From a virus, in the IMG/VR virus record IMGVR_UViG_3300021938_000096, positions 1 through 43,311 of that record: a stretch of 43,311 nt of DNA. One strand, given 5' to 3'. Below are positions 1,267 through 36,238 of the stretch, one piece after another. Numbering within the stretch: the stretch's first letter is position 1; each line of letters begins with the position of its first letter. A model generated the notes under the pieces. The model ran no database searches, was not told where the DNA came from, and was given only the letters and a program-made list of their open reading frames with translations. A program made the translations under genes and the position numbers.

Positions 1267-4200
1267 TCATGCCGCAAGTTTAGATAGGCTTTCTGCCACT
1301 TTGTTTTTTTGCATTTGAATTGTCCTGATTAAATCCCGCTTCGCATCGGGCTCGATATTTGATCTTTCAATATACCGGATGCGTTCATTGAGTTTTGCCT
1401 CAGCCCGCTTCACTTGTTCAACATGCTTGTATTTAATCAAGTCATCGTTGTGTGATTCTTTGAACTCAGTGGCTTCTTGGAATTTGCCTTGCTTAACAAG
1501 GTCGCGGTAAGTTCCATACGACTGTTCAATTTCTTTTGCCTGTGTGTACATCTGGGTAACATACCGGCTGGGTGCGTCGCGCAAGTCGCTGACCATATTG
1601 CCCGTTGCAACTTTCCACATATCAGCCGATGCATGCTCTGCTTGACCTGTAGCGGGTCGCGCAACAATATCCGAAGCGCCGACCACAAACGATCCAAGCC
1701 AGCCGAAATAACCTCGTAGCATATGGTCTATTTGAACGGGGCTTAGTGATTCTTTGCCAACAATGCCAGTTGCTGCGTTCAGGCTGGTGCTGAGCCCTCG
1801 GGCAACCATGCTGGTTCTATCGTTGAACCGATATTCTGGCCTTAGATTTTCTTGCCCCATCGTTTCAATCGGTCGTCCTGTGAAGCTGTCTTTGTTGGCG
1901 TAGATATCAACAATAGGTTTGATAAGTTGAGGCACGGGATTCATGCTCAGGTTGTCACCCAATAAGGTCAGTACCTGATTCAAAAATCGCTTGTTGGTCA
2001 TTTCCTTGTCAAAGGCCAATTCAAAACCGCGTTCTGCCAGTGTGGCAATTGCACCAATTTCAAATGGCTTAGGGATGCGGAAAGCCGTACCGCCGAACTT
2101 GAACCACCAGAAATTATTGCGGTCTGATTCTTCGCGTTTTTTCCAATCGTCGTCATCGCCATAAGCGGCCAACAAGCCAATGGATAAAACAGCCGTTGCA
2201 CCCAGCACAATGCCGAAGCGCTTGGGGTCTTCCTTGGCGGACTTGCCCAATTTGTAAAGACCCTGGAGGCGGGCATTGAAGAACGGAACAACTTGGGTCA
2301 AGAAGCGTATGGTCGCAAAACTTCCCTGCATGGAGAAGTCCATCAGGTCACGCGCCTGCAAGCTGGCTTCTGCATGGTTCATGCCTTGCTTGACAAGCTG
2401 GTCATACAGGCTTGCCCGGTTAATCGCTTCACCACGATTACCAAGTTCGTTGTACGCCGTGACGCCCGGTTCAATGAACTTGCGGTAAAACGCTTTGACC
2501 TTGTGATCGTTGTTCAAAATGGTAGAGGCATCAACGCCGGATTCAACCAGTGCTTGTATGCGTTTGGCCTCGCTGCCTTCCATCATCGTGCCAAAGTGAA
2601 TTGTTCCACCGCCCGCCAGCAAACGGAAATAGGCGTCGCTTTTAGGATCGGTCAGCTTCCATCCCTCTGCAATGTTCTTGGCCGGGTTGTAGCTCAGGTT
2701 ACCAGTTCCGATGGCCTGGACAGAATCTCGAATCAGGTTGCGCACCTTGAAGAACGGGGAGGCCGTCACGCCAATCGTGAGCGCATGCTTCATTGAACTC
2801 ATGGCATTCATGACGGGATTGCGCATGCCTGCATATTCAAGCGATGTCAGCGCCGTCAATAGATAAGGACCGTCCTCTTGGTCGATCAGGCTATATCGTT
2901 TTTGACCACCGTCCATGAACCATACAACTCCCTGTTTGTTGTGAACAGACGATGCCATTTCTGCCAGCGTCGATTGATTCCCGCCCATCGCTGCACCCAC
3001 CGCCTCAGCGGCCTCAATCGTGGCCTTGGCAGCCCTGTTCTTGGCGGCTGCATCCAGGAGGTGAGCCCAGTTCATCAGCGTGTTGTCGAGCAGGTCAGCA
3101 TTGAGTGCACCCTTGCCGCCTTTGAGTGACTTGAATGCCTCTTGCCTGACAACGCTGCCTTTGATGTTCATACCTCTTACACCGCCTTCATCGGCAACGC
3201 GGTAAAAAGGAACGTAAAACTCATGCTCCCAGTACTTTCTTGATTCTGGGTCAATCAAGCCGGATTGCTCGGCCATGTCCAGAATGTTCTTGTTGAAACC
3301 ATTGAACACGCGCAAAGCATCGCCATAAATCAAAGACCTATCCCGCGTTACTTGTCCTGCTTTGGGGCCAGTCTGGATGGTGTAGCCAAAATCCGTGGTG
3401 CCTTCGGACAGTGTTTTCAGGGCTGCAATATCTTCTTTGGTAAACAGATTTTCTTTGCCGTCACCCATCAATCGTTCGGCGCGGTTCGCTGCAACCCAGC
3501 GCATGAAGTCATGGTGTTCACCTTGTAATGGAATCAGCAGCTTATCAACAACACCGCCTTTATTGGCTTGGTCAAAGTCATACACACCATCGGTTAACTT
3601 GAGTTTTCCGCCTTGCAAGAAAGCTTCGAATGCACCGCTTGCACCTTTGGCAAGTCGCATCAAGCCATAGGCTTTTTTATCCAAGTCCTTGACGGGCGCG
3701 AATTGATCGACAATGCCCTGCGCCATTTTCTTGCCCGCATCTTTCCACAGTAATTTGGCGCGCTCTTTCAGCGTGGGCTGGGTGACATCGAAGCCAACAT
3801 TCTTCATGGCTTTCAATTGTTCAGGGGTATGTTTTCGCGATGTTTGACCAACAATGGAGGATCGGCTGAAATAAATGTCAGGGTTCGTGCTGCCACTATC
3901 CGGCGCGGTTGGTTCATTCGGAATTACGGTATCGAGATCATCGTTGACGTAAGCCGATTTGATTTTCTTCAAGGCATCAGAAAATGTGTCTCTGCTGTAG
4001 CCATCGTCTGGCGCAAGGTTGATGTCTGTTTCGCCAAAATGATGCCCACGGTTCACGTTAGAGTGATCGGAAATCCTGACATTGATAATCACATCTTTTT
4101 CGTACCCATCCGCCGTCTTGCCAAAAGATTTGGTGATGGTGACGTACTTATCCCCGCGCCCGGAAACTTTGTAGCCCTCAGCTTCTGCCATATCGGCGAA

Positions 4201-7200
4201 TGCAAGCGACTTGGCTGTGATTTCTGTCGATTCGTCAATATCTCCTTCACCGCCATGTTTTTCAAACGCGGCTTGGGCATCAAATGCAGCGCCCGGTGTT
4301 GAGTCATCGGTAGATTTCCCCTGCTTCATAAATGAAGGAACAAACCCACCATTCATTGTTTTGCTTGAATGCGAGATGGCCGCATAGGCCAACATGGTGA
4401 TGTCGTCATTGTTCAGGTACTTGCCACCAATGCCGAACTCGTTGAACAAGAATGCCTTGATCTTGGAAATCAGTTGTTTGACGAGCGTCATCTCGGGATG
4501 GTTCTGCACCAGATAGGCTAAGTTTTCCTCAGGAATCTGACTTGGGCGAACTGAGTTTTTCTCGGCTTCGTCAAAGGCCGCTTGAACGGCTTTGTTCCCG
4601 GCGCGACGCATCACGTCCAGGCGCTTTATCACGCTGTCGTAACTCTTTTTACCCAACATGCGTTCAAAGCCATAGTGAACGCCGACCTCGTGCAAGACCA
4701 AGCCTTTAACCATGTCCTCCGTGAGATTGCTCAGGACGGCATAAGTCTTGTCGGTTTTAGGGTCATAGAAGCCATAGACAACATCGTTATCCCGCAAGAA
4801 TGGGACGATATGGTTAGGCAGGTTGGATTGGTTTGCCAGCGGGACAACTACACCTTTGGCAATCAGCTTATCAGCAACTTTCGCGCCGAATGCTTTTGTC
4901 AGTGCTTGGTTGAATTGAGTTTGGCTAAGTCCTCTTGGTACAGACTTTACACGAACTCCGCTTTCTGTTTTGGCGTAGAAGATGCCTTTGCTGGATGCAG
5001 GAAATTGACGCCCGACATCCACAAGCTTAGCCAGTATTCCGCTTCCAGGCCTTCCATCGCTGCTTTTTTCGCTTTCTTCGCGTACCAAAGCACTGAGGAC
5101 AGCGTTTCTTTTGTACGTTGCGATCCCAGCACCGCTCTCAGGTCTGCGTCCAACTTCGACAATTTGTCGTATGGCATCGTCATCAAAGACTCCACCCTCT
5201 GAATCTCGGAAGGTTCCAGTTGATAGGTCAAAGGTAAGAAGGTTCGCGCCTGCATGATCGAGTGACTCCATTGATACTTGAATGAGTGACTCGATATTAG
5301 CCAAGTCATCGCCGTATGTCCAGTGCAAAGGTGGAACGCCAATGGAACTTGCGCCTTCAAGCTGACGCGGGTGTGGTGCCAAGTGGCGTGTCGTACCAAA
5401 CTTCAAGGCTGACGATAACATGTTCTCGGTGCGCCTGCGCATGGCTGAATTACTCAATCCAGCTGGGTCTCCAATCAGAATACGCCCCGTATTGTGTGCA
5501 AATGTCGCCGCGATGTTGTAAACTTTTGCGCCATATCCCCCCTCTTTTAACGTGGAAACGTCAATGTAAACGTCCTCCATATCATCAGGAATTGACTCCG
5601 CATTGTCACCAGGTCGATCCGTAGTGACCTGCATATCACCTTCTTCATTTTGAGATATGCCGTAGGCCTGTGGGCCGTAGGGATTGACGCTACGCACCAT
5701 CAGTCGCGCCTTCGCGCCGTTAGGCATGGTAAGTACATAATTCTTCACCAAGCCAGGATATGCGACTGCCTTAACAGTAATGCTTGGGTCAGTGTCTGCT
5801 GCAATGCCTTGCACCGTCGTCTTATCAGATTTCGGCAAAGCAAAAATATCATCATTCTCGCTCAGTGCTTTCAATGCATTTTGTTCGCGTTGGACTGACT
5901 CTCGACTGAACATCGGCCCATCTGCAATCTTCATGCCTTGCTCTGCTTCTGCCACGCCAGTTTTAACATTGATTGAATCCAGTGGGTTGACATCTACTTT
6001 TTTGAGCGCAGCAGCAATGTTCTGGCTGGCGGTTACCCCTGCCATGCTGGTGGGTGTGCTCAGTTCTCCACCATGCACAATGATGGCTGCACCGGCGTTT
6101 GATTGGCTGATAGCGCGGTAGATAGCATTCAACTCGCCGGTGCTTCTCAATGGGCCGTGCATGCCTTGAGTTATGGGCATCCATCCAGCAATAGCGTGGT
6201 GGGCATTCAATAGCAAAATTCCAGGCCCATTGTTCTTGTTGTAGAGCGACTTGGCGGCAATCTTGGCATCTAATGGGCTATTGATCTCGTAGGCGGGCGC
6301 ACCCTTTCCTAGTTGGCGTTCTACCACGGGAACGGTTGCACCTTGTTTGGCGGATGGGATAGGACGATGCAGAGTTGCGTCACCGTGCCCGCGCTCATCA
6401 ACGTAGCTATACTTATCGCCTGCAACAGCCATGATTCCCATGGGCTCGATGCCGCTTCCGCGAAACACGTCGGACAGCGATTGATTCAGCAGCATATCGG
6501 CGCGTGACAGTGATGGGTTTCCGCTGGGGTGGTTGTGCGAAAACCATACGTGTGCAGCGCCGGGTATGCGTACCGCCTCGCCCATCAGGGTTGCCGGGTA
6601 AATTGAGGCTTGAGACAGCGCCCCTTTAAAACCGCCAATTACCGCGAGTGGCTTGCCATTTTTATCAGTGACAATTCCATCGAATCTTTCTACTGCCGAT
6701 TGGTAGAGGTAGCGGGTAGCTTGTGCTGCTTGTTCATGAGTTTGCACAAGGCTTGCGCCCAACTGTCGATCAGCCGTCTTACCCATGATGGTGTTGACGT
6801 AGAACGTGGCATTAGGCAAGTCTGTGTCGGATAGTGCGGCTGTGGGCTGTACGTCCCCACGTAACCCGGCGCGGTTGGATCGGCTGGGTTTAGTTTTTCC
6901 GGTTGGTGCGGGTAGTTCATTGCCAAAAAGATCGGTTGTGTAGTTGTCAGTGTAGTCTCGTTCAGTCTCATTTGCAACTTGGCCGCTATCCTCAATCCTG
7001 GATGGCTTTTCTTTGCTCACCAAATACAGTGGGTCATCCCTATATTCTGGGTTTGCATCTCGTGCCGTGTCGGTCAATGCAAACCGAATAGCGCTACCGG
7101 CATGAACCACGGGCTTGCCGTCTTTCATAGGCATCACGTCCAATCGGTCAAAGCGGGCGCTCCACGCGTAGTATTCAACCCCATTACTATCTATGACAAT

Positions 7201-10200
7201 TGCGCCGCGAGTCAGGTTTGCAGCCTGATCTGGGGTGATTGGCTTTTCTTCCTTGGCCGGGTACGCCGCTTTCAATTCATCTGGCGTGATGTCCCCTGAC
7301 TTGACATCTTTCAAGACGTCGATCCGCTCTTTGCCGGTGACATTGGCGGCGTCAAGAATCTCGGTGGCTTGCGCTGCAGGTGCTTTGTTGGATTTTGCCT
7401 TCTTCAGTTTATCCGCTGCGCCGTAAGCGTCTATGCTGTAGTCAGAATGTAGCACCCAATTTTGGTCATCCCCACGATCTTTGGGTTTGAGATTGGCAGA
7501 AACCATTTCTGTTTTCATCGCCTTTTGTGGCGATTCTTCACCACGAAACCAAACGCCATCCTCAAATTTGGCATAGGTTCCGTTGTCAAGTTTGTAAATT
7601 GCATTCTTGGACGGCGCTTGTTTGGCGTTACCTTGATTTGACTCAGCAAAGATACCGCCCTGACCCGATAGTGAATCCTCGGCGTTTTGACCTAATGCAA
7701 AGTTTTCAGCACTGGCGTATTGCCGGGCTTTTATTTCCACGGCATCGCGTTCAGCCTTTGCCTTCTTTTCGGCGTCAACGTCAGCTTTGATCTTTGCCTT
7801 TTCTTCATTGTCGGCGCGTTCCTGCTGCGCCAGAATATCGGCGCGTGTCGGTGAAACTAAGCCGTGTGCTTCATCGGTGTGGATGTTTCCCGCTTGGCTT
7901 TGTTGGCCCATATCCGCGCCAGAATTTCCACGGCCTGCGGCGATGGATTCTTGTTCGGCGATGGCAGTTTGGATGGCGTGTTTTGCGAGTTCATAGTATT
8001 CCTGATTAGATACGCTTTCGTTATGTTCTGCAACCTCCATCCGCACAGATTCTGAATCAATCCCTAGTGCGTCAAGTTGCGAAGACAGGGCAGCTACTTC
8101 CTGTTGAATCTCGGGGTTGGCTTCGGCAAAGCCTGTGCCTTGAAGATCGGCCTCAATAATGCCTTCACCCGCCATAGATGCAAACGGGTCATAGTCCTCA
8201 CTTTGTGCGGCATCTTGCTCTGCGGCCAGGTAATCGGCAAAGCGCTGATCGGCTTCGCGTCCGGCCATGAGTTCCGTATCCTGCGGGGTGTAGCGCGGGC
8301 TATTCAGGGATTGCTTGATGAGGTTACGGGCTTCTTCGTGGCTGTCGCCTTCGTTCAAGTAGCCTGATTCGATCAATCGCTCAGTGGCTTGCTCGATGGT
8401 CATCCCACGGCCAGCGCCTGCAAACAGACTGCGGTTGCCAATGCGAACATTGCCTTCCATTCCCATATCGGCGCGGGTACTGGGGGATAACATACCTTCA
8501 CCAGCAATAAATTCATGCGCAGCGATCGGTGTTCCGGCTTGTCCTGTGGTCGCCAAACCCAAACGGCGGGCCGCTTTTTCTTGGGCGGCAAGTTGTTTCT
8601 CGGTCTTGGGGGCCAAGGCGAATCCACCGGCCACCTTCACCACGCGTAACATGGGCTGCTGTTTCTTGGCGCTGTCGGCAGACTTCTTCGACTTGAAGGG
8701 TTTGCCGCCTTCACGTAACGGCGCGCTATCAACGCCCAAGTGTTCTTGGTCATGCGCTTCACGCTCGGCCTGAATTTCAGCCAGCGACTGGGTGATCTTT
8801 GCACGGGTCGATATCGGGATGGTCGCCCACTTCTTTTCTAGCAGCTTGCGGACTGTGATGTCGCCGCCTTTGGTTGCCATGCCTGCACGTCTAATGGCAT
8901 CGGTGCGAGCGCTCGCGTCCAAACTGTCCCAGTACTCAATCGGCCCACTGCCCGCTTGGGCGGGCGCATCACCCGAGACTGCGGGGGCTTGACTTTCAGC
9001 TACAGGCTCGGCAGTAGGTTGCTCCGAATTTACTTGTCGTTCGGTTCCTCGTTCCGACGTCGATTGTTCCGCTGCTGGCGCGATGGTTTTGGCGGACGTA
9101 ATGACATCGGTGGTTCCTTCAATATTGGGTTTAGTCGTGGCTTTCTGCATAGCCAACTGCATAGCCGTAGGCGCTTCTGCAATCTTCGCCGCTTCTAGTG
9201 CGCGTCCTTGGGCTTGCAGATCATTCAAATCACGGTCATTGGAAAACTCGCGTTGCAGTTCTGCCCGCAAGGTTTCCAAGTCGCGGCCTTCGCGTGTAAC
9301 GAGGTCGTTCAACTCATAGGCTTTTTCTGTGCCAACTTTAGGCAAAGTTGCAATGTCAGGATACGCCGACAACAACCCCGCTTCACCGCCATAGGCTTGG
9401 GCCGATTGCTGATCCCGAATAGGGGTTCCCGCTTTGACCGCATCTATGAAGTTGGTGACGGCTTGCGCGGACAGTACAGAATTGTCAGCGGCTTTGATGG
9501 CGTCATCAACGGTCGCGGCTTTGCCGATGTCGGCAATGTGGGTGATGGGGGCTTTTTGTGGGCTGCTTAGAATCCCGCCTGCGCTGCTGTGCAATACACC
9601 GCCTAGCATACCTTGGGCAGCGGCGTCGAGTGCATTGCCTTGGTTCGCTTCGGATTGATTCCATGGCAGCATATTGGCTTCATTGCCTTTGCCGTATTCC
9701 TCGATTCCAGTTTGTCCGTATTCGGTCAAACCTTCAATCGGCGCGGCTACCAATGAACTTGTCCCGGCACGGGTTAGCTTGCCTTTGATACCCGGCATTT
9801 CTCCCAGTTTCTTGCTGATGGCAAGTTTGCCTTTAAGGGCTTCAAGGCCCAACATGCGTTCGCCAAACTCAGCCGTTCCCGCCAAGAAAGTAGCGCCCAG
9901 GGCCTTGGCAATTTCTTCACCGGTTAATGCGCGGTTTTCATCCACGGATTTCTTGGCAATACCGCCGCCGATTTCACCGCCTTCCATACCGTAAGCACTA
10001 GCGCCCGTCGCTGTGGCTGCGCCAATCCGCCCGGCTACATTGGCCGTAGCCGCTTTCGCCAGTTGATCTGCTGAGAGTTTTGCGCCTTCTTCGGTAGCAG
10101 CCAATGCAGCGGCTTCTTTCGACACCATGCCACTGGCTAACTTTTCAACCGTCGCTTTCAAACCCGCTTTTCCGATCACGGAACCGAGTCCAGCCGTCGC

Positions 10201-10608
10201 CAGCATCTGCGCCGCTTGTCCGCCCGCATAGCCAATGCCGTGCGTCAACCAATCCACCATAGCGCCGAAGTCGCCTTCTTTGGCTTTGTCGTACGAATAG
10301 GTAAATGAATCGGATGGCAGTGCATCCTTTTGCATTTTGTCCTCATACGCTTGATAGCCTTTAACGCCCGCCTTTTTGATGCCAGTCGCAATACCGCCTT
10401 CACCGAAGGCTGTTTCTGCCGTTGCACCCGCACCCGCCATCAATCCATACCCGAGTTGCGGGAGTTGCTGGAATGCTTCTTTTACCCCTCGGCCTGCATT
10501 GGCAACGATGCCAACCGGTGCCGCTGGTTTTTCGGGTACAAACTTATCCCATTCATTGAACGTGGAAAAGTCCTGTGGCGCTTCCGGTTTGAATGTTGAC
10601 CAATCCAT
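1267..10608 (-). CDS. Giant multidomain virion-associated protein with RadC-like JAB motif and LPD38-like C-terminus
   Basis: This single intact frame encodes 3113 residues, over a fifth of the window. The N-terminus carries a short repeated phrase (DWSTFKPEAPQDFSTFNEWD) followed by Ala/Gly-rich amphipathic stretches (about 30-260), then long Gln/Glu/Ala-rich linkers. Around residue 1358 is HNHPSGNPSLSRAD, matching the metal-binding HxHPSG..SxxD motif of RadC/JAB domains; a second, degenerate JAB-like segment follows near 1436-1550. HEVGVH sits at 1973-1978. From about 2270 to the end the text resembles the LPD38-type polyvalent protein domain, with one hydrophobic segment (IVLGATAVLSIGLLAAYG, near 2800). 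By analogy with giant proteins of Bcep22-like podophages it is likely an internal, ejected virion protein combining DNA-delivery and effector-type activities; that role is inferred. It is the last gene of the late region. Confidence 0.9.
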   Translation of the reverse strand: MDWSTFKPEAPQDFSTFNEWDKFVPEKPAAPVGIVANAGRGVKEAFQQLPQLGYGLMAGAGATAETAFGEGGIATGIKKAGVKGYQAYEDKMQKDALPSDSFTYSYDKAKEGDFGAMVDWLTHGIGYAGGQAAQMLATAGLGSVIGKAGLKATVEKLASGMVSKEAAALAATEEGAKLSADQLAKAATANVAGRIGAATATGASAYGMEGGEIGGGIAKKSVDENRALTGEEIAKALGATFLAGTAEFGERMLGLEALKGKLAISKKLGEMPGIKGKLTRAGTSSLVAAPIEGLTEYGQTGIEEYGKGNEANMLPWNQSEANQGNALDAAAQGMLGGVLHSSAGGILSSPQKAPITHIADIGKAATVDDAIKAADNSVLSAQAVTNFIDAVKAGTPIRDQQSAQAYGGEAGLLSAYPDIATLPKVGTEKAYELNDLVTREGRDLETLRAELQREFSNDRDLNDLQAQGRALEAAKIAEAPTAMQLAMQKATTKPNIEGTTDVITSAKTIAPAAEQSTSERGTERQVNSEQPTAEPVAESQAPAVSGDAPAQAGSGPIEYWDSLDASARTDAIRRAGMATKGGDITVRKLLEKKWATIPISTRAKITQSLAEIQAEREAHDQEHLGVDSAPLREGGKPFKSKKSADSAKKQQPMLRVVKVAGGFALAPKTEKQLAAQEKAARRLGLATTGQAGTPIAAHEFIAGEGMLSPSTRADMGMEGNVRIGNRSLFAGAGRGMTIEQATERLIESGYLNEGDSHEEARNLIKQSLNSPRYTPQDTELMAGREADQRFADYLAAEQDAAQSEDYDPFASMAGEGIIEADLQGTGFAEANPEIQQEVAALSSQLDALGIDSESVRMEVAEHNESVSNQEYYELAKHAIQTAIAEQESIAAGRGNSGADMGQQSQAGNIHTDEAHGLVSPTRADILAQQERADNEEKAKIKADVDAEKKAKAERDAVEIKARQYASAENFALGQNAEDSLSGQGGIFAESNQGNAKQAPSKNAIYKLDNGTYAKFEDGVWFRGEESPQKAMKTEMVSANLKPKDRGDDQNWVLHSDYSIDAYGAADKLKKAKSNKAPAAQATEILDAANVTGKERIDVLKDVKSGDITPDELKAAYPAKEEKPITPDQAANLTRGAIVIDSNGVEYYAWSARFDRLDVMPMKDGKPVVHAGSAIRFALTDTARDANPEYRDDPLYLVSKEKPSRIEDSGQVANETERDYTDNYTTDLFGNELPAPTGKTKPSRSNRAGLRGDVQPTAALSDTDLPNATFYVNTIMGKTADRQLGASLVQTHEQAAQATRYLYQSAVERFDGIVTDKNGKPLAVIGGFKGALSQASIYPATLMGEAVRIPGAAHVWFSHNHPSGNPSLSRADMLLNQSLSDVFRGSGIEPMGIMAVAGDKYSYVDERGHGDATLHRPIPSAKQGATVPVVERQLGKGAPAYEINSPLDAKIAAKSLYNKNNGPGILLLNAHHAIAGWMPITQGMHGPLRSTGELNAIYRAISQSNAGAAIIVHGGELSTPTSMAGVTASQNIAAALKKVDVNPLDSINVKTGVAEAEQGMKIADGPMFSRESVQREQNALKALSENDDIFALPKSDKTTVQGIAADTDPSITVKAVAYPGLVKNYVLTMPNGAKARLMVRSVNPYGPQAYGISQNEEGDMQVTTDRPGDNAESIPDDMEDVYIDVSTLKEGGYGAKVYNIAATFAHNTGRILIGDPAGLSNSAMRRRTENMLSSALKFGTTRHLAPHPRQLEGASSIGVPPLHWTYGDDLANIESLIQVSMESLDHAGANLLTFDLSTGTFRDSEGGVFDDDAIRQIVEVGRRPESGAGIATYKRNAVLSALVREESEKSSDGRPGSGILAKLVDVGRQFPASSKGIFYAKTESGVRVKSVPRGLSQTQFNQALTKAFGAKVADKLIAKGVVVPLANQSNLPNHIVPFLRDNDVVYGFYDPKTDKTYAVLSNLTEDMVKGLVLHEVGVHYGFERMLGKKSYDSVIKRLDVMRRAGNKAVQAAFDEAEKNSVRPSQIPEENLAYLVQNHPEMTLVKQLISKIKAFLFNEFGIGGKYLNNDDITMLAYAAISHSSKTMNGGFVPSFMKQGKSTDDSTPGAAFDAQAAFEKHGGEGDIDESTEITAKSLAFADMAEAEGYKVSGRGDKYVTITKSFGKTADGYEKDVIINVRISDHSNVNRGHHFGETDINLAPDDGYSRDTFSDALKKIKSAYVNDDLDTVIPNEPTAPDSGSTNPDIYFSRSSIVGQTSRKHTPEQLKAMKNVGFDVTQPTLKERAKLLWKDAGKKMAQGIVDQFAPVKDLDKKAYGLMRLAKGASGAFEAFLQGGKLKLTDGVYDFDQANKGGVVDKLLIPLQGEHHDFMRWVAANRAERLMGDGKENLFTKEDIAALKTLSEGTTDFGYTIQTGPKAGQVTRDRSLIYGDALRVFNGFNKNILDMAEQSGLIDPESRKYWEHEFYVPFYRVADEGGVRGMNIKGSVVRQEAFKSLKGGKGALNADLLDNTLMNWAHLLDAAAKNRAAKATIEAAEAVGAAMGGNQSTLAEMASSVHNKQGVVWFMDGGQKRYSLIDQEDGPYLLTALTSLEYAGMRNPVMNAMSSMKHALTIGVTASPFFKVRNLIRDSVQAIGTGNLSYNPAKNIAEGWKLTDPKSDAYFRLLAGGGTIHFGTMMEGSEAKRIQALVESGVDASTILNNDHKVKAFYRKFIEPGVTAYNELGNRGEAINRASLYDQLVKQGMNHAEASLQARDLMDFSMQGSFATIRFLTQVVPFFNARLQGLYKLGKSAKEDPKRFGIVLGATAVLSIGLLAAYGDDDDWKKREESDRNNFWWFKFGGTAFRIPKPFEIGAIATLAERGFELAFDKEMTNKRFLNQVLTLLGDNLSMNPVPQLIKPIVDIYANKDSFTGRPIETMGQENLRPEYRFNDRTSMVARGLSTSLNAATGIVGKESLSPVQIDHMLRGYFGWLGSFVVGASDIVARPATGQAEHASADMWKVATGNMVSDLRDAPSRYVTQMYTQAKEIEQSYGTYRDLVKQGKFQEATEFKESHNDDLIKYKHVEQVKRAEAKLNERIRYIERSNIEPDAKRDLIRTIQMQKNKVAESLSKLAA

Positions 10609-33193: not shown

Positions 33194-34681
33194 TTATCCC
33201 AACATGCCCATTGAGGGCTGTGGGTTACTGTATGCCGCAAGCCTCTTTTGCTGCGGCGTTGATTGAGTTTTTGCGAAGCGAAGTGCCATTAATGCGTACC
33301 TTGTGGCCGACATCAAATCGTCGCCTTCTTTGACTACTTTCCCGTCTTTGCGGTGGTAGATTCGGAACTCTTCCCACCAATCGTGAAGGTGTTTCGCCAC
33401 TTTTAATCGGCCTGTTTGCATCCGGTCTAGCATGTCCATCAGACCTGCTTCAACGCCATTTCCGCCTGTGCCTTCTTTGTCACCACGGGCTGGCGCATGC
33501 GTCACCTTGTCTTTGAGCATCGCAACACCTAGATTGCGGTATTGCATCGCCAGGGCATCGCCAGAGCCTTTGTCGTGCTGCAATCCATCATGCGGCCAAG
33601 CTACAGGAATCCATGATCCTTTGGCTTTGATCGCTGCGGCATGGATGACCGGCGTTTGTTCTTTGACGCGGTAGCAGTCGTAAACATGGGCAGTATCTGT
33701 ATCCCTGTCCCAAGCAATCCATACCGCAGCGGTAGGGTGATCCCATCCGAAGTCAAGTGCACAGATACGCGGCCAGTGATTAGGGATTGAAACCGGCATT
33801 TCCCGGATGACATCCTCAGACACCGGGAAAATTGCACCGCTGCCTAGTGTTGGGGTTCCGTTTGACCTTGCCTCACGCTCATGCAGTGGGTAGCTGGCAA
33901 TGATCGACTTCCGTTGTTCTGGCGTGTAGTGCATCGCATCGGCAATCCCCATCTTGGTGACATGCGTGCCATGCGGCTTCTCGACAAGAAACTTTTTAAC
34001 TACGTTGCTCATGCCCTGTAAAGGCGTGAATGTGATAAATGTGATGCCTGATACGCCCTCAGAGCCATTAGAACCGACGTTGGTGCGCGTCAAGCCTTCC
34101 GAGTAGATATCTTCGGGCGGCTCTTCGTCAAACCAGACAAAATCCAAACTGGGCCCCTGCCATTTCTCACGGCCTTTTTCGTAGGCCTTAAAGCTGACGA
34201 TTGAAATGCCACCGGAAACATGCTTAACCTTGATCGAATCTACAGCATCAGCAATGCCATGACCCGCACGCGTCACTTCAATAATGTGTGACTTTGGGAT
34301 TGATCCCGTACCGTGCTGCCCAGGCAGTCCAAGCAAAATCTTCTGCGGGTTATCACGGGTTGATTCTCCGGTCACACCAGATGCCCACCCGATAACACGC
34401 CGATTCCAGCGCTTACCATCCCACCAATCCGGATAGAGTCCAGTCAGGTGCATGGCAACCTCAAAACCAGCCGACCACGTTTTCCCCAGCTGATTTCCTG
34501 CGCAAAGTAAGCGCTCCCTTACACCAACATCACCGCCAGCATCATGAAAATCCTGCTGCTTTTGGTAAGGCGTGTAATCAGCCAGCTTGTTTTCGTCAAG
34601 CTTCTTGCGTATTTCAATGTCGAGTGCTGCCAGCGCCTTTGGCGACAACGCCGACAGGCTCTGCATAAGCTCTGATTTCAT
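33194..34681 (-). CDS. terL: Terminase large subunit
   Basis: The 495-residue product has the two expected domains. The ATPase has an adenine-binding FHDAGGDVGVRERLLCAGNQ region with Walker A GNQLGKT (62-68), Walker B VWFDEEPP (182-189) and a coupling segment ITFITFTPLQG (213-223). The RNase H-type nuclease has ALDFGWDHPTA (Asp310, Asp314), AWPHDG (Asp365) and an acidic VKEGDDLMSATRYALMALRF near the end. It pumps DNA through the portal and cuts the concatemer. The gene overlaps the small subunit by 68 bases; an alternative ATG at 34666 shortens this little. Confidence 0.95.
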   Translation of the reverse strand: MKSELMQSLSALSPKALAALDIEIRKKLDENKLADYTPYQKQQDFHDAGGDVGVRERLLCAGNQLGKTWSAGFEVAMHLTGLYPDWWDGKRWNRRVIGWASGVTGESTRDNPQKILLGLPGQHGTGSIPKSHIIEVTRAGHGIADAVDSIKVKHVSGGISIVSFKAYEKGREKWQGPSLDFVWFDEEPPEDIYSEGLTRTNVGSNGSEGVSGITFITFTPLQGMSNVVKKFLVEKPHGTHVTKMGIADAMHYTPEQRKSIIASYPLHEREARSNGTPTLGSGAIFPVSEDVIREMPVSIPNHWPRICALDFGWDHPTAAVWIAWDRDTDTAHVYDCYRVKEQTPVIHAAAIKAKGSWIPVAWPHDGLQHDKGSGDALAMQYRNLGVAMLKDKVTHAPARGDKEGTGGNGVEAGLMDMLDRMQTGRLKVAKHLHDWWEEFRIYHRKDGKVVKEGDDLMSATRYALMALRFAKTQSTPQQKRLAAYSNPQPSMGMLG

Positions 34682-35132
34682 TGATTGCGTCTTTCATAGA
34701 CTGTAAATCAGCATGATCCAATCCATCAAGCGGGCCTGTCTTAACTTCAGACCGATCCACAAACATGGAAAATTCTTTGCCAATTAGCTCAAGTGCTTTA
34801 TTCGATGCGGCTAGATTCTGTGCGGCTTTGTATTCGCCCGTCGGTTCGCCATCTGAATTGATGATGGGCTCGCCAGTCTTTCCTAGTTTGACAATCTCAA
34901 CCAGCTCATTCATGACCCAAGCTCTATCAATCCCGGTCTTCTCCGTAACCCGTTCCGTAGCCAGCCTTTGAAGTTCCGCAATTCTTCCACGTACCTCAGG
35001 CTTAGCTGCTAACTCACTCCCTGTTACAGTTGCGCGCTTTTCAGCAAATCCAGCGGTTACGGCAGATTCCGTTGCGGTTACGCCTTTTGCCATCAATTGA
35101 GCGAAGTGTTCCCACTTAGGATTCTTCAACAT
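34614..35132 (-). CDS. terS: Terminase small subunit
   Basis: I prefer the ATG at 35132 (MLKNPKWEHFAQLMAKGVTA), four bases after the previous stop, over 35162, which overlaps the upstream gene. The 172-residue product has the Terminase_2-type N-terminal HTH (EHFAQLMAKGVTATESAVTA, then GFAEKRATVTGSELAAKPEV), a central oligomerisation helix (VRGRIAELQRLATERVTEKT) and a C-terminal tail. It would bind the packaging site and recruit TerL. Confidence 0.85.
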   Translation of the reverse strand: MLKNPKWEHFAQLMAKGVTATESAVTAGFAEKRATVTGSELAAKPEVRGRIAELQRLATERVTEKTGIDRAWVMNELVEIVKLGKTGEPIINSDGEPTGEYKAAQNLAASNKALELIGKEFSMFVDRSEVKTGPLDGLDHADLQSMKDAINEIRAYAEPVGVVAKGAGSTRH

Positions 35133-35136
35133 AAAC

Positions 35137-35334
35137 TTACTCAGCCATGGATTCGGTTGCAATTACGCTCAGATCAACTACGCAATCATCATTCAGCCAA
35201 CTTAGGATCATCTCGGCGGTCTTGTGGGCTTCTGAGTCTGGGTTGTATCCACCCTCATAAGCGACGCGCATGCCGACATTGGGCTCACCGGACTCTGTTT
35301 GTCCGGCATCATCCAGAACAATGATGACTTGCAT
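35137..35334 (-). CDS. Small acidic phage protein (65 aa)
   Basis: The product MQVIIVLDDAGQTESGEPNV continues with SEAHKTAEMILSWLNDDCVV. The first strand and the helix near residue 40 suggest a small alpha/beta fold. It overlaps the preceding stop by one base and precedes the terminase small subunit. Function unknown. Confidence 0.7.
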   Translation of the reverse strand: MQVIIVLDDAGQTESGEPNVGMRVAYEGGYNPDSEAHKTAEMILSWLNDDCVVDLSVIATESMAE

Positions 35335-35624
35335 TAGGCGGCGACGCTGTTAAAGCCTTCTTGCATGGCTTTGTCTTGACCGTTGGTGTCTGCCATAGCT
35401 CCCTCGTTCTTTAGGGCTTCTAGGGCAGCTGTTAATGCACCTTTGATGTCGGGGAAGGTTTGAGCACCGGGCTCATTGGCTTCTTCGGCGGGGTTCTCTT
35501 GGGGGGCCATGCCTGGAGCTGCCCCGGCTGCAGCTCCAGCTTCTGGCTCCATGTCTTCCTCGGGTTGCTCGACATAGACTTTGTAATCGCCCTGATCCGT
35601 GGCTTCGATGCAGACAGTAAACAT
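35334..35624 (-). CDS. First gene of the late operon: small Ala/Glu-rich protein (96 aa)
   Basis: A longer frame starts at 35684, but it would run through the terminator hairpin at 35645-35663. The ATG at 35624 (MFTVCIEATDQGDYKVYVEQ) gives a natural N-terminus and lies just after that hairpin. The middle is low-complexity (EPEAGAAAGAAPGMAPQENP) and the end helical (IKGALTAALEALKNEGAM). It is the first gene downstream of the late promoter and terminator pair. Function unknown. Confidence 0.75.
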   Translation of the reverse strand: MFTVCIEATDQGDYKVYVEQPEEDMEPEAGAAAGAAPGMAPQENPAEEANEPGAQTFPDIKGALTAALEALKNEGAMADTNGQDKAMQEGFNSVAA

Positions 35625-35638
35625 GGTATGGCCCAAAT

Positions 35639-35663
35639 AAAAAAGCCGATCACTTGGATCGGC
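35639..35663 (-). terminator. tR'-like intrinsic terminator ahead of the late operon
   Basis: On the minus strand GCCGATC, a five-base loop and GATCGGC form a perfect seven-pair stem followed by TTTTTTATTT. It lies about 130 bases downstream of the predicted late start point and 15 bases before the first late gene. All late genes lie beyond it, so it must be overridden for late expression. Confidence 0.85.
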
Positions 35664-35799
35664 GTAAAGATCGACTTTCGTCAACCTATGGAGTTCGGTA
35701 GTTACAGACGCCCCATTTAGAGGGCTCTCTTATTTTTTTAGTGTCGTCTGCCCCTCCAATGGATAGGGCGATGCGTGTATGCACTATTCGCTGGTGCAT

Positions 35800-35827
35800 A
35801 GCATACCATGAATTTGATTCATATCAA
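35800..35827 (-). promoter_or_regulatory. Predicted late promoter (pR'-like) with a dyad in its spacer
   Basis: On the minus strand TTGATA (35822-35827), 16 bases, then TATGCT (35800-35805), preceded by TGG as an extended -10. A perfect six-base dyad, ATGAAT-TTG-ATTCAT (35808-35822), fills the spacer between the boxes. Overlapping it, TGATT and AATCA form a second dyad around the -35. The site lies between the Q-like gene and the terminator at 35639. Confidence 0.5.
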
Positions 35828-35851
35828 TCAGAAGTTGCTTTTTTGCAACAA

Positions 35852-36238
35852 TCAAGCTGTTTCTGCAATTCTTTCGACACGGTTACTTAGCATTTGACGT
35901 CCATCAATCACCAATTGGTTAAGCCCGTCGATGTTTACCCCTAGCTTTCGACACATTTGCCAGTAGTTTGTTCCGGTCACGTAATACCAACGGATTGACT
36001 CTCTTTGTTTATCTGGGAGTGCGGCCACGGCTTTCTCCATCTTGTGCCCGTCCAGGGTGTCGCATGACTTCCTTAATTCTGGGGCATGCCATTGGCGGGA
36101 ATTGCTTTGGGTGTTGGCCCACATTGGATGTTGTTTACTTCCAAACCCCACTTTGACATACGATGCCCAGTTCTCCAGACGCTCGTGCATGGCGGATTGA
36201 TGGGCGGGGACAAAAAACAGATCAACTTCTTTTTTCAT
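35852..36238 (-). CDS. Late gene regulator, Q-like antiterminator
   Basis: The 128-residue product has a C-terminal half (MEKAVAALPDKQRESIRWYY, then CRKLGVNIDGLNQLVIDGRQ) resembling the sigma region-4-like HTH of phage late regulators (antitermination Q, ArpU and RinA type). The wording AxxxLPxxxRExIRWYYV is common in phages of Burkholderiales. AAAGG lies five bases before the ATG. It is the last gene of the middle region and sits directly upstream of a promoter and terminator followed by all late genes, just as lambda Q does. It would let RNA polymerase pass that terminator. Activation of the promoter is the alternative. Confidence 0.75.
   Translation of the reverse strand: MKKEVDLFFVPAHQSAMHERLENWASYVKVGFGSKQHPMWANTQSNSRQWHAPELRKSCDTLDGHKMEKAVAALPDKQRESIRWYYVTGTNYWQMCRKLGVNIDGLNQLVIDGRQMLSNRVERIAETA

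Follow-up and report, generated by a model that had tools for sequence, protein, structure and literature searches.

The DNA analysed here, referred to below as the window, is a stretch of 43,311 nucleotides covering positions 1 to 43,311 of an IMG/VR virus record (IMGVR_UViG_3300021938_000096). On its minus strand, a gene for a Q-like regulator is followed by a promoter, a leader, a terminator, an open reading frame of 96 amino acids and the genes for the small and large terminase subunits. HNH, RusA-like, methyltransferase, DnaB-like and O-like replication genes are located farther upstream. The gene order across the region is O-like protein, DnaB, RusA, HNH, Q and terminase, which we take to be that of a lambdoid phage. 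All elements named in the original prediction are present on the minus strand: the Q-like reading frame (36238–35852), a promoter with TTGATA and TATGCT separated by 16 nt, a perfect 6-3-6 dyad in the spacer, and a terminator at 35663–35639. The features discussed in this report are the following.

35852..36238, minus strand: gene for the Q-type regulator, 128 aa, predicted phage-21 Q fold
35822..35827, minus strand: -35 hexamer TTGATA
35808..35822, minus strand: dyad ATGAAT-CAA-ATTCAT, tentative candidate for a binding site
35800..35808, minus strand: extended -10, TGG followed by TATGCT (hexamer 35805–35800)
35792..35793, minus strand: expected transcription start, placed by its distance to the -10
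35783..35788, minus strand: -10-like AATAGT, possible sigma-dependent pause element
35768..35791, minus strand: P1, predicted 5'-terminal leader hairpin GCGA-AUA-GUG-CAUA-CAC-GCA-UCGC
35757..35758, minus strand: putative hairpin-pause site at a U|G step, 10 nt past P1
35752..35767, minus strand: P2, possible second hairpin
35639..35663, minus strand: intrinsic terminator, tR'-like, stem 35663–35645 and T run to 35639
35334..35624, minus strand: first reading frame past the terminator, 96 aa, starting at 35624
34614..35132, minus strand: terminase small subunit
33194..34681, minus strand: terminase large subunit

A TG precedes the -10 hexamer, and the last T of the dyad doubles as the T of the extended -10. 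The terminator lies about 130 nt past the expected start, and the leader of the window is about 155 nt long. No family match was found for the 96-aa reading frame. Elsewhere in the window, a reading frame of 3113 aa (1267–10608, minus strand) spans more than one fifth of the contig. The numbers of promoters and terminators between positions 34000 and 38000 do not exceed those in shuffled sequences (2 compared to 3.9 for promoters, 2 compared to 4.6 for terminators).

The regulator and its relatives

The Pfam matches of the window protein are limited to sigma-70 region 4 (PF08281, E = 0.0044) and PF06530 (E = 0.11), the latter being the family of phage 21 Q, or Q21, according to PMC7171158. The PF06530 score of 12.9 bits is below the curated cut-off of 26, and for this reason we did not place the window protein in that family. 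The lambda Q family (PF03589) is absent among its Pfam matches at E ≤ 1, a search in which the HMMER filters may drop very weak matches. Of the 14 members of the regulator alignment, two match PF06530 at E ≤ 1 (best E = 1.3e-5) and 13 match phrog_79, annotated as "anti-termination protein Q-like", at E ≤ 0.1 (best E = 2.7e-6). The AlphaFold2 model of the window protein has a pLDDT of 79, and the best re-aligned solved structure is Q21 (6p18_Q), with a Z score of 10.8 over 115 residues, which is nearly the whole chain, noting that Z scores below about 13 can be common among helical proteins. The next three structures are also Q21 chains (Z = 9.2–9.7), followed by sigma region 4 structures at 8.7 or less; Foldseek alone ranked Q21 37th with E = 0.32. 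We find the full-length coverage, together with the position of the gene, persuasive, and the model argues for a Q21 fold of the window protein.

Relatives of the regulator are present in Variovorax (L018, L019) and other genomes of the same family. The regulator profile matched in 29 of 399 same-family genomes, with scores above 50 bits at 11 places in 10 genomes, while most of the remaining matches covered only the sigma-like part; the sole strong match in a class-wide sample of 369 genomes was G001. We worked with 27 distinct Q loci. Repeats of other loci or copies (L014, L019, L020, L023–L026, L028–L031, L061) were dropped, as were weak or sigma-factor-like matches (L016, L017, L032, L042–L060, L062–L067). 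A promoter and leader were found in 25 of the 27 loci and a clear terminator in 24. Twenty-three leaders were read directly from the DNA downstream of the Q-like genes, and two (L012 and L107) were located with an RNA model; the latter were added late and are in none of the tests that use 23 leaders. The DNA following the gene in L040 and L041 was read and no leader was found, and the 200 bases taken from L004 held no clear terminator. Leader lengths range from 88 to 165 nt by our leader-length rule. Because the relatives repeat this arrangement (gene, promoter, leader, terminator), the set as a whole exceeds chance. Searches among annotated phages with three Q-like proteins and one leader gave no matches.

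We consider it highly probable that the locus is a late antitermination switch, and by predicted fold and layout the switch appears to be of the Q21 kind. The original prediction described a lambda-like Q switch. Its Q-type late antitermination part is supported by the match to the phage-21 Q fold, the lambdoid gene order, and the promoter, leader and terminator conserved in the relatives. Phage-21-like is a better label than "lambda-like".

Several irregularities of layout were seen along the way. In the record of L021, the leader of L107 is separated from the Q gene before it by about 4 kb. In L012, a transposase-like gene is inserted between the Q-like gene, which ends at 3363, and the leader at 4997, with promoter, leader and terminator intact beyond it. 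A similar-looking small reading frame directly follows the Q-like gene in L012, L027, L036, L037 and L040; wherever a late promoter was identified, this frame precedes it. The window has no such reading frame. Within the window leader, the segment GAGCCCTCTAAATGGGGC (35727–35710, minus strand) is similar to the relatives' terminator stem (GAGCCCTC...GGAGGGC) and lacks a T run. Most leaders are about 50 nt shorter than that of the window, as though a decayed old terminator had given way to a later one.

Promoter spacers and the start of the leader

The dyad between the promoter hexamers was originally proposed to be the binding element of the regulator. Shuffling the spacer region yields a dyad as good in 5–6% of cases (94 of 2000 with mononucleotide and 304 of 5000 with dinucleotide shuffling), and the whole window contains 14 perfect 6-3-6 dyads. 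Among 23 promoters, window included, five have arms of at least 5 compared to 1.4 expected (P = 0.008), with dyad centres scattered from 7.5 to 14 bp from the -10. The dyad is absent or out of register in most relatives, and we reject it as an operator common to the family. Direct repeats, the style of binding element used by Q21, fare no better: the longest direct match in the spacer region of the window is 3, and there is no enrichment over the 23 promoters. When 22 spacers are aligned on the -10 (L009 is omitted), the letters favoured, counting back from the hexamer, are G at the first position, G at the second, T at the third and T at the fifth. The extended -10 motif is TRTGn. The conserved letters fit that motif, and a common spacer motif acting as operator is likewise rejected. 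We can see no common operator in the spacers of the relatives. Each factor could have its own DNA site, and that of the window may be the dyad, as with GafZ. The dyad as binding element is a tentative reading: its position is that of the near-palindrome needed by GafZ, while the shuffles, the relatives and the extended -10 speak against it.

In a consensus fold of the leaders, a helix appeared right at the beginning of the transcript. We defined this hairpin, P1, by an apical GC-N4-GC or GYG-N4-CRC located 8–24 nt after the -10 and an outer stem score of at least 4. Of 23 leaders, 21 conform to the rule; in 500 rounds of dinucleotide shuffling the mean was 1.17 and the highest count 4 of 23. 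This comparison is subject to the rule having been framed after the leaders had been inspected, to promoters picked by eye beside the leaders, and to relatedness among many of the leaders. The two that do not conform, L010 and L037, were scored as misses; in L038 the rule counts the stem GGTTG/TAGCC, which is not the one read by eye. In the 22 leaders with the apical motif, the pairing score of a leader's own arms is 4.43 compared to 3.13 for swapped arms (0 of 20,000 permutations). The 21 stems are of 15 kinds, with all four Watson–Crick pairs occurring at each of four positions and G.U in 10 of the 73 cells of the stem table.

The P1 arm starts 6–10 nt after the -10 in all 23 leaders, that is, at approximately +1, and the two arms are 12 to 20 nt apart. 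Such variable spacing disfavours P1 as a site for a protein dimer on DNA, and RNA is therefore favoured. Judged from these alignments, the leaders of the relatives open with a predicted 5'-terminal RNA hairpin that is conserved and covarying, a feature that the earlier reading of the window missed. By folding energy alone the P1 signal is weak, as positions +1 to +55 fold just slightly more stably than shuffles (mean z = -0.8). The minimum-energy fold of the full-length window leader (z = -2.87) contains P1, whereas the fold of 68 nt does not. We saw no P1 by eye in the enterobacterial PF06530-type leaders (L099–L106), where the promoters are uncertain and the result is no firm negative.

An RNA model, R1, was built on seven leaders and recovers leaders from outside its training set: L012 with 51.9, L034 with 46.6, L035 with 40.1, L015 with 29.5 and L107 with 60.9 bits. 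Built from other members, it gives the window leader just 8.5 bits, and for this reason the assignment of P1 in the window relies on the P1 rule and not on R1. Searches of 299 and 399 genomes at E ≤ 5e-4 yielded G001 and G107, both with Q, and G136, G797 and G961; the last three matches are away from Q, overlap reading frames and are probably due to chance. Nothing in the window reaches a gathering cut-off in Rfam 15, and the single match of the window leader in E-value mode was judged to be chance. Rfam matches in 13 loci were limited to two tRNAs and Betaproteobacteria-1 in L012, which lies upstream of the Q gene and is unrelated.

In eleven leaders (L011, L015, L018, L022, L027, L034–L039) TGAGCA or TGAGCG occurs just inside P1, a few bases past the expected start. 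TGAGCA is the hexamer bound by phage-21 Q as a direct repeat, according to PMC6606751; the likeness is possibly coincidental.

Proposed pausing and loading of the regulator

The leaders were also compared in terms of elements that could hold RNA polymerase near the promoter. A -10-like element, defined by A at position 2, T at position 6, at least 3 matches and a start 6–14 nt after the -10, occurs in 2 of 23 leaders (the window and L033) compared to 4.2 in shuffles, and is not enriched; the lambda sequence AACGAT passes the identical test. Hairpin pauses generally take the form of a hairpin followed by a pyrimidine–G step, the distance from the hairpin being about 11 nt in known cases. A TG 7–12 nt after P1 is found in 18 of the 21 leaders with P1, each of the 18 having one at 8–10 nt, compared to a mean of 7.9 in shuffles (0 of 1000 reach 18), an enrichment inflated by the relatedness of the leaders. 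The distance is shorter than the approximately 11 nt of the known hairpin pauses. P2, which directly follows P1 and looks real by eye in several leaders, is no more stable than in shuffles (15 of 21 at ≤ -3 kcal/mol compared to 13.0). Part of the family has a long-range helix CUGAGC/GCUCAG, with scores of 4.69 for own and 4.21 for swapped arms in 24 leaders (14 of 10,000 permutations). This helix would compete with P1.

Since the -10-like element is not enriched while TG is enriched 7–12 nt after P1, we propose P1 as the element that supplies the loading pause. RNA polymerase would start at the extended -10 promoter just past the regulator gene, make the leader of about 155 nt and halt at the terminator. 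When present, the Q-type protein would join the polymerase near the promoter, and the modified polymerase would pass the terminator into the terminase and later genes. P1 could fold behind the polymerase and hold it at the U|G step 8–10 nt further on, which would give the factor its loading time, a job that in lambda, phage 21 and AlpA is done by a sigma-dependent pause. The window, with its AATAGT, could use either route. We lean slightly towards this explanation as a whole, that is, a late switch run by a distant phage-21-Q-like factor with P1 supplying the loading pause. The pausing step taken separately, with the hairpin giving the loading time, is somewhat doubtful. In its general form, in which a hairpin pause in the nascent RNA takes the place of the sigma-dependent pause for loading of a Q21-type antiterminator, and competition between P1 and the long-range helix produces a two-state leader RNA in part of the family, the idea is rather unlikely.

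The classical scheme for Q would have the factor bind the spacer dyad and load at a sigma-dependent pause on AATAGT, the hairpin being irrelevant to loading. Both elements are suitably placed in the window, GafZ, an antiterminator with a sigma-like helix-turn-helix, requires a near-palindrome between the -10 and -35 (PMC11150451), and the excess of long-armed dyads over the 23 promoters is in line with this scheme. According to PMC9371919 and PMC6606751, Q proteins depend on two elements, a -10-like one for pausing and one for binding to DNA; PMC9371919 says so of all Q proteins and shows the pause requirement for AlpA. Among the relatives, however, the dyads are unregistered and mostly missing, -10-like elements are at or below chance, and P1 is conserved and covarying; moreover, the direct repeat used by Q21 (PMC6606751) has no enriched counterpart here. 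We regard the classical scheme as unlikely.

Two further scenarios assign the hairpins a role other than loading. The terminated leader could be a working sRNA of the lysogen or infected cell, with P1 guarding the 5' end or binding a host protein or target and no role in antitermination. A terminated late leader can serve in this way: according to PMC7873438, the Hfq-binding sRNA StxS of coliphages arises by processing of the terminated pR'-tR' transcript. The place of P1 at the extreme 5' end and the lengths of the leaders would suit such a function, but the tight spacing between promoter and P1 and between P1 and U|G suggests a transcriptional role, and we find the sRNA scenario improbable as a replacement for the P1 loading pause, with which an sRNA role is compatible. 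Alternatively, the hairpins could resemble the put RNA of HK022 in function: acting in cis, they would render the polymerase resistant to terminators, and the Q-like protein would serve as activator or helper. Hairpins near a transcript start can themselves modify polymerase, as described in PMC9378689, and the start position and the two neighbouring hairpins seen by eye resemble put. Against this stand the size of put, about 70 nt with two long stems compared to about 40 nt here, the stability of P2, which is at the level of shuffles, and the nearby Q-fold gene, which would be redundant. We consider this scenario very improbable.

If the proposal of a loading pause at P1 is true, a Q21-fold family with an RNA hairpin as cis element would show that RNA can supply the loading pause. 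The locus offers a compact module of promoter, hairpin and terminator for testing a pause supplied by RNA, and adds a phage RNA structure unmatched by searches of Rfam 15.

Comparison with known systems

What appears new, on the evidence of the sequences, is the recurrence of promoter and leader in the relatives and the conserved 5' leader hairpin, the latter being the unexpected part. We found no conserved leader hairpin for Q systems in literature listings that include few subscription papers. Two known systems are similar in what the transcript may do. As described, HK022 put shares with the present leaders a hairpin structure where the phage transcript begins and the need of that transcript to escape terminators, but put belongs to early operons, is longer and acts independently of protein. 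The StxS sRNA derives from a terminated late leader of coliphages; the likeness is to the predicted terminated leader here, for which an sRNA role is hypothetical.

Other systems resemble the locus in regulator and promoter. GafZ, from the Caulobacter GTA, is a sigma-like helix-turn-helix antiterminator whose element ZBE is a palindrome in the spacer between -10 and -35. The dyad of the window is placed likewise, although 5–6% of shuffles have one as good; GafZ differs in that it works with GafY and IHF. AlpA with its element ABE in Pseudomonas has a Q21-like fold, an element between -10 and -35, and a terminator past the promoter, but it requires a sigma-dependent pause (PMC9371919), whereas the -10-like element is not conserved here.

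The lambda Q/pR'/tR' system has the same gene order and leader–terminator layout, and its leader also has a predicted hairpin from about +1. It differs in that lambda Q belongs to another Q family by fold and in that the apical motif is not matched in the lambda leader. The lambda late leader (L098, J02459) is predicted to fold into two adjacent hairpins from about +1, and the first arm is the AACGA of the pause element. Phage 21 Q (PF06530), with its late promoter and terminator, shares with the window the predicted fold, the gene position and the order of promoter, leader and terminator. The window differs from it in a sequence below the Pfam cut-off and in having no direct-repeat element, and the relatives studied here differ in lacking a conserved -10-like element and in having a conserved hairpin at the 5' end of the leader.
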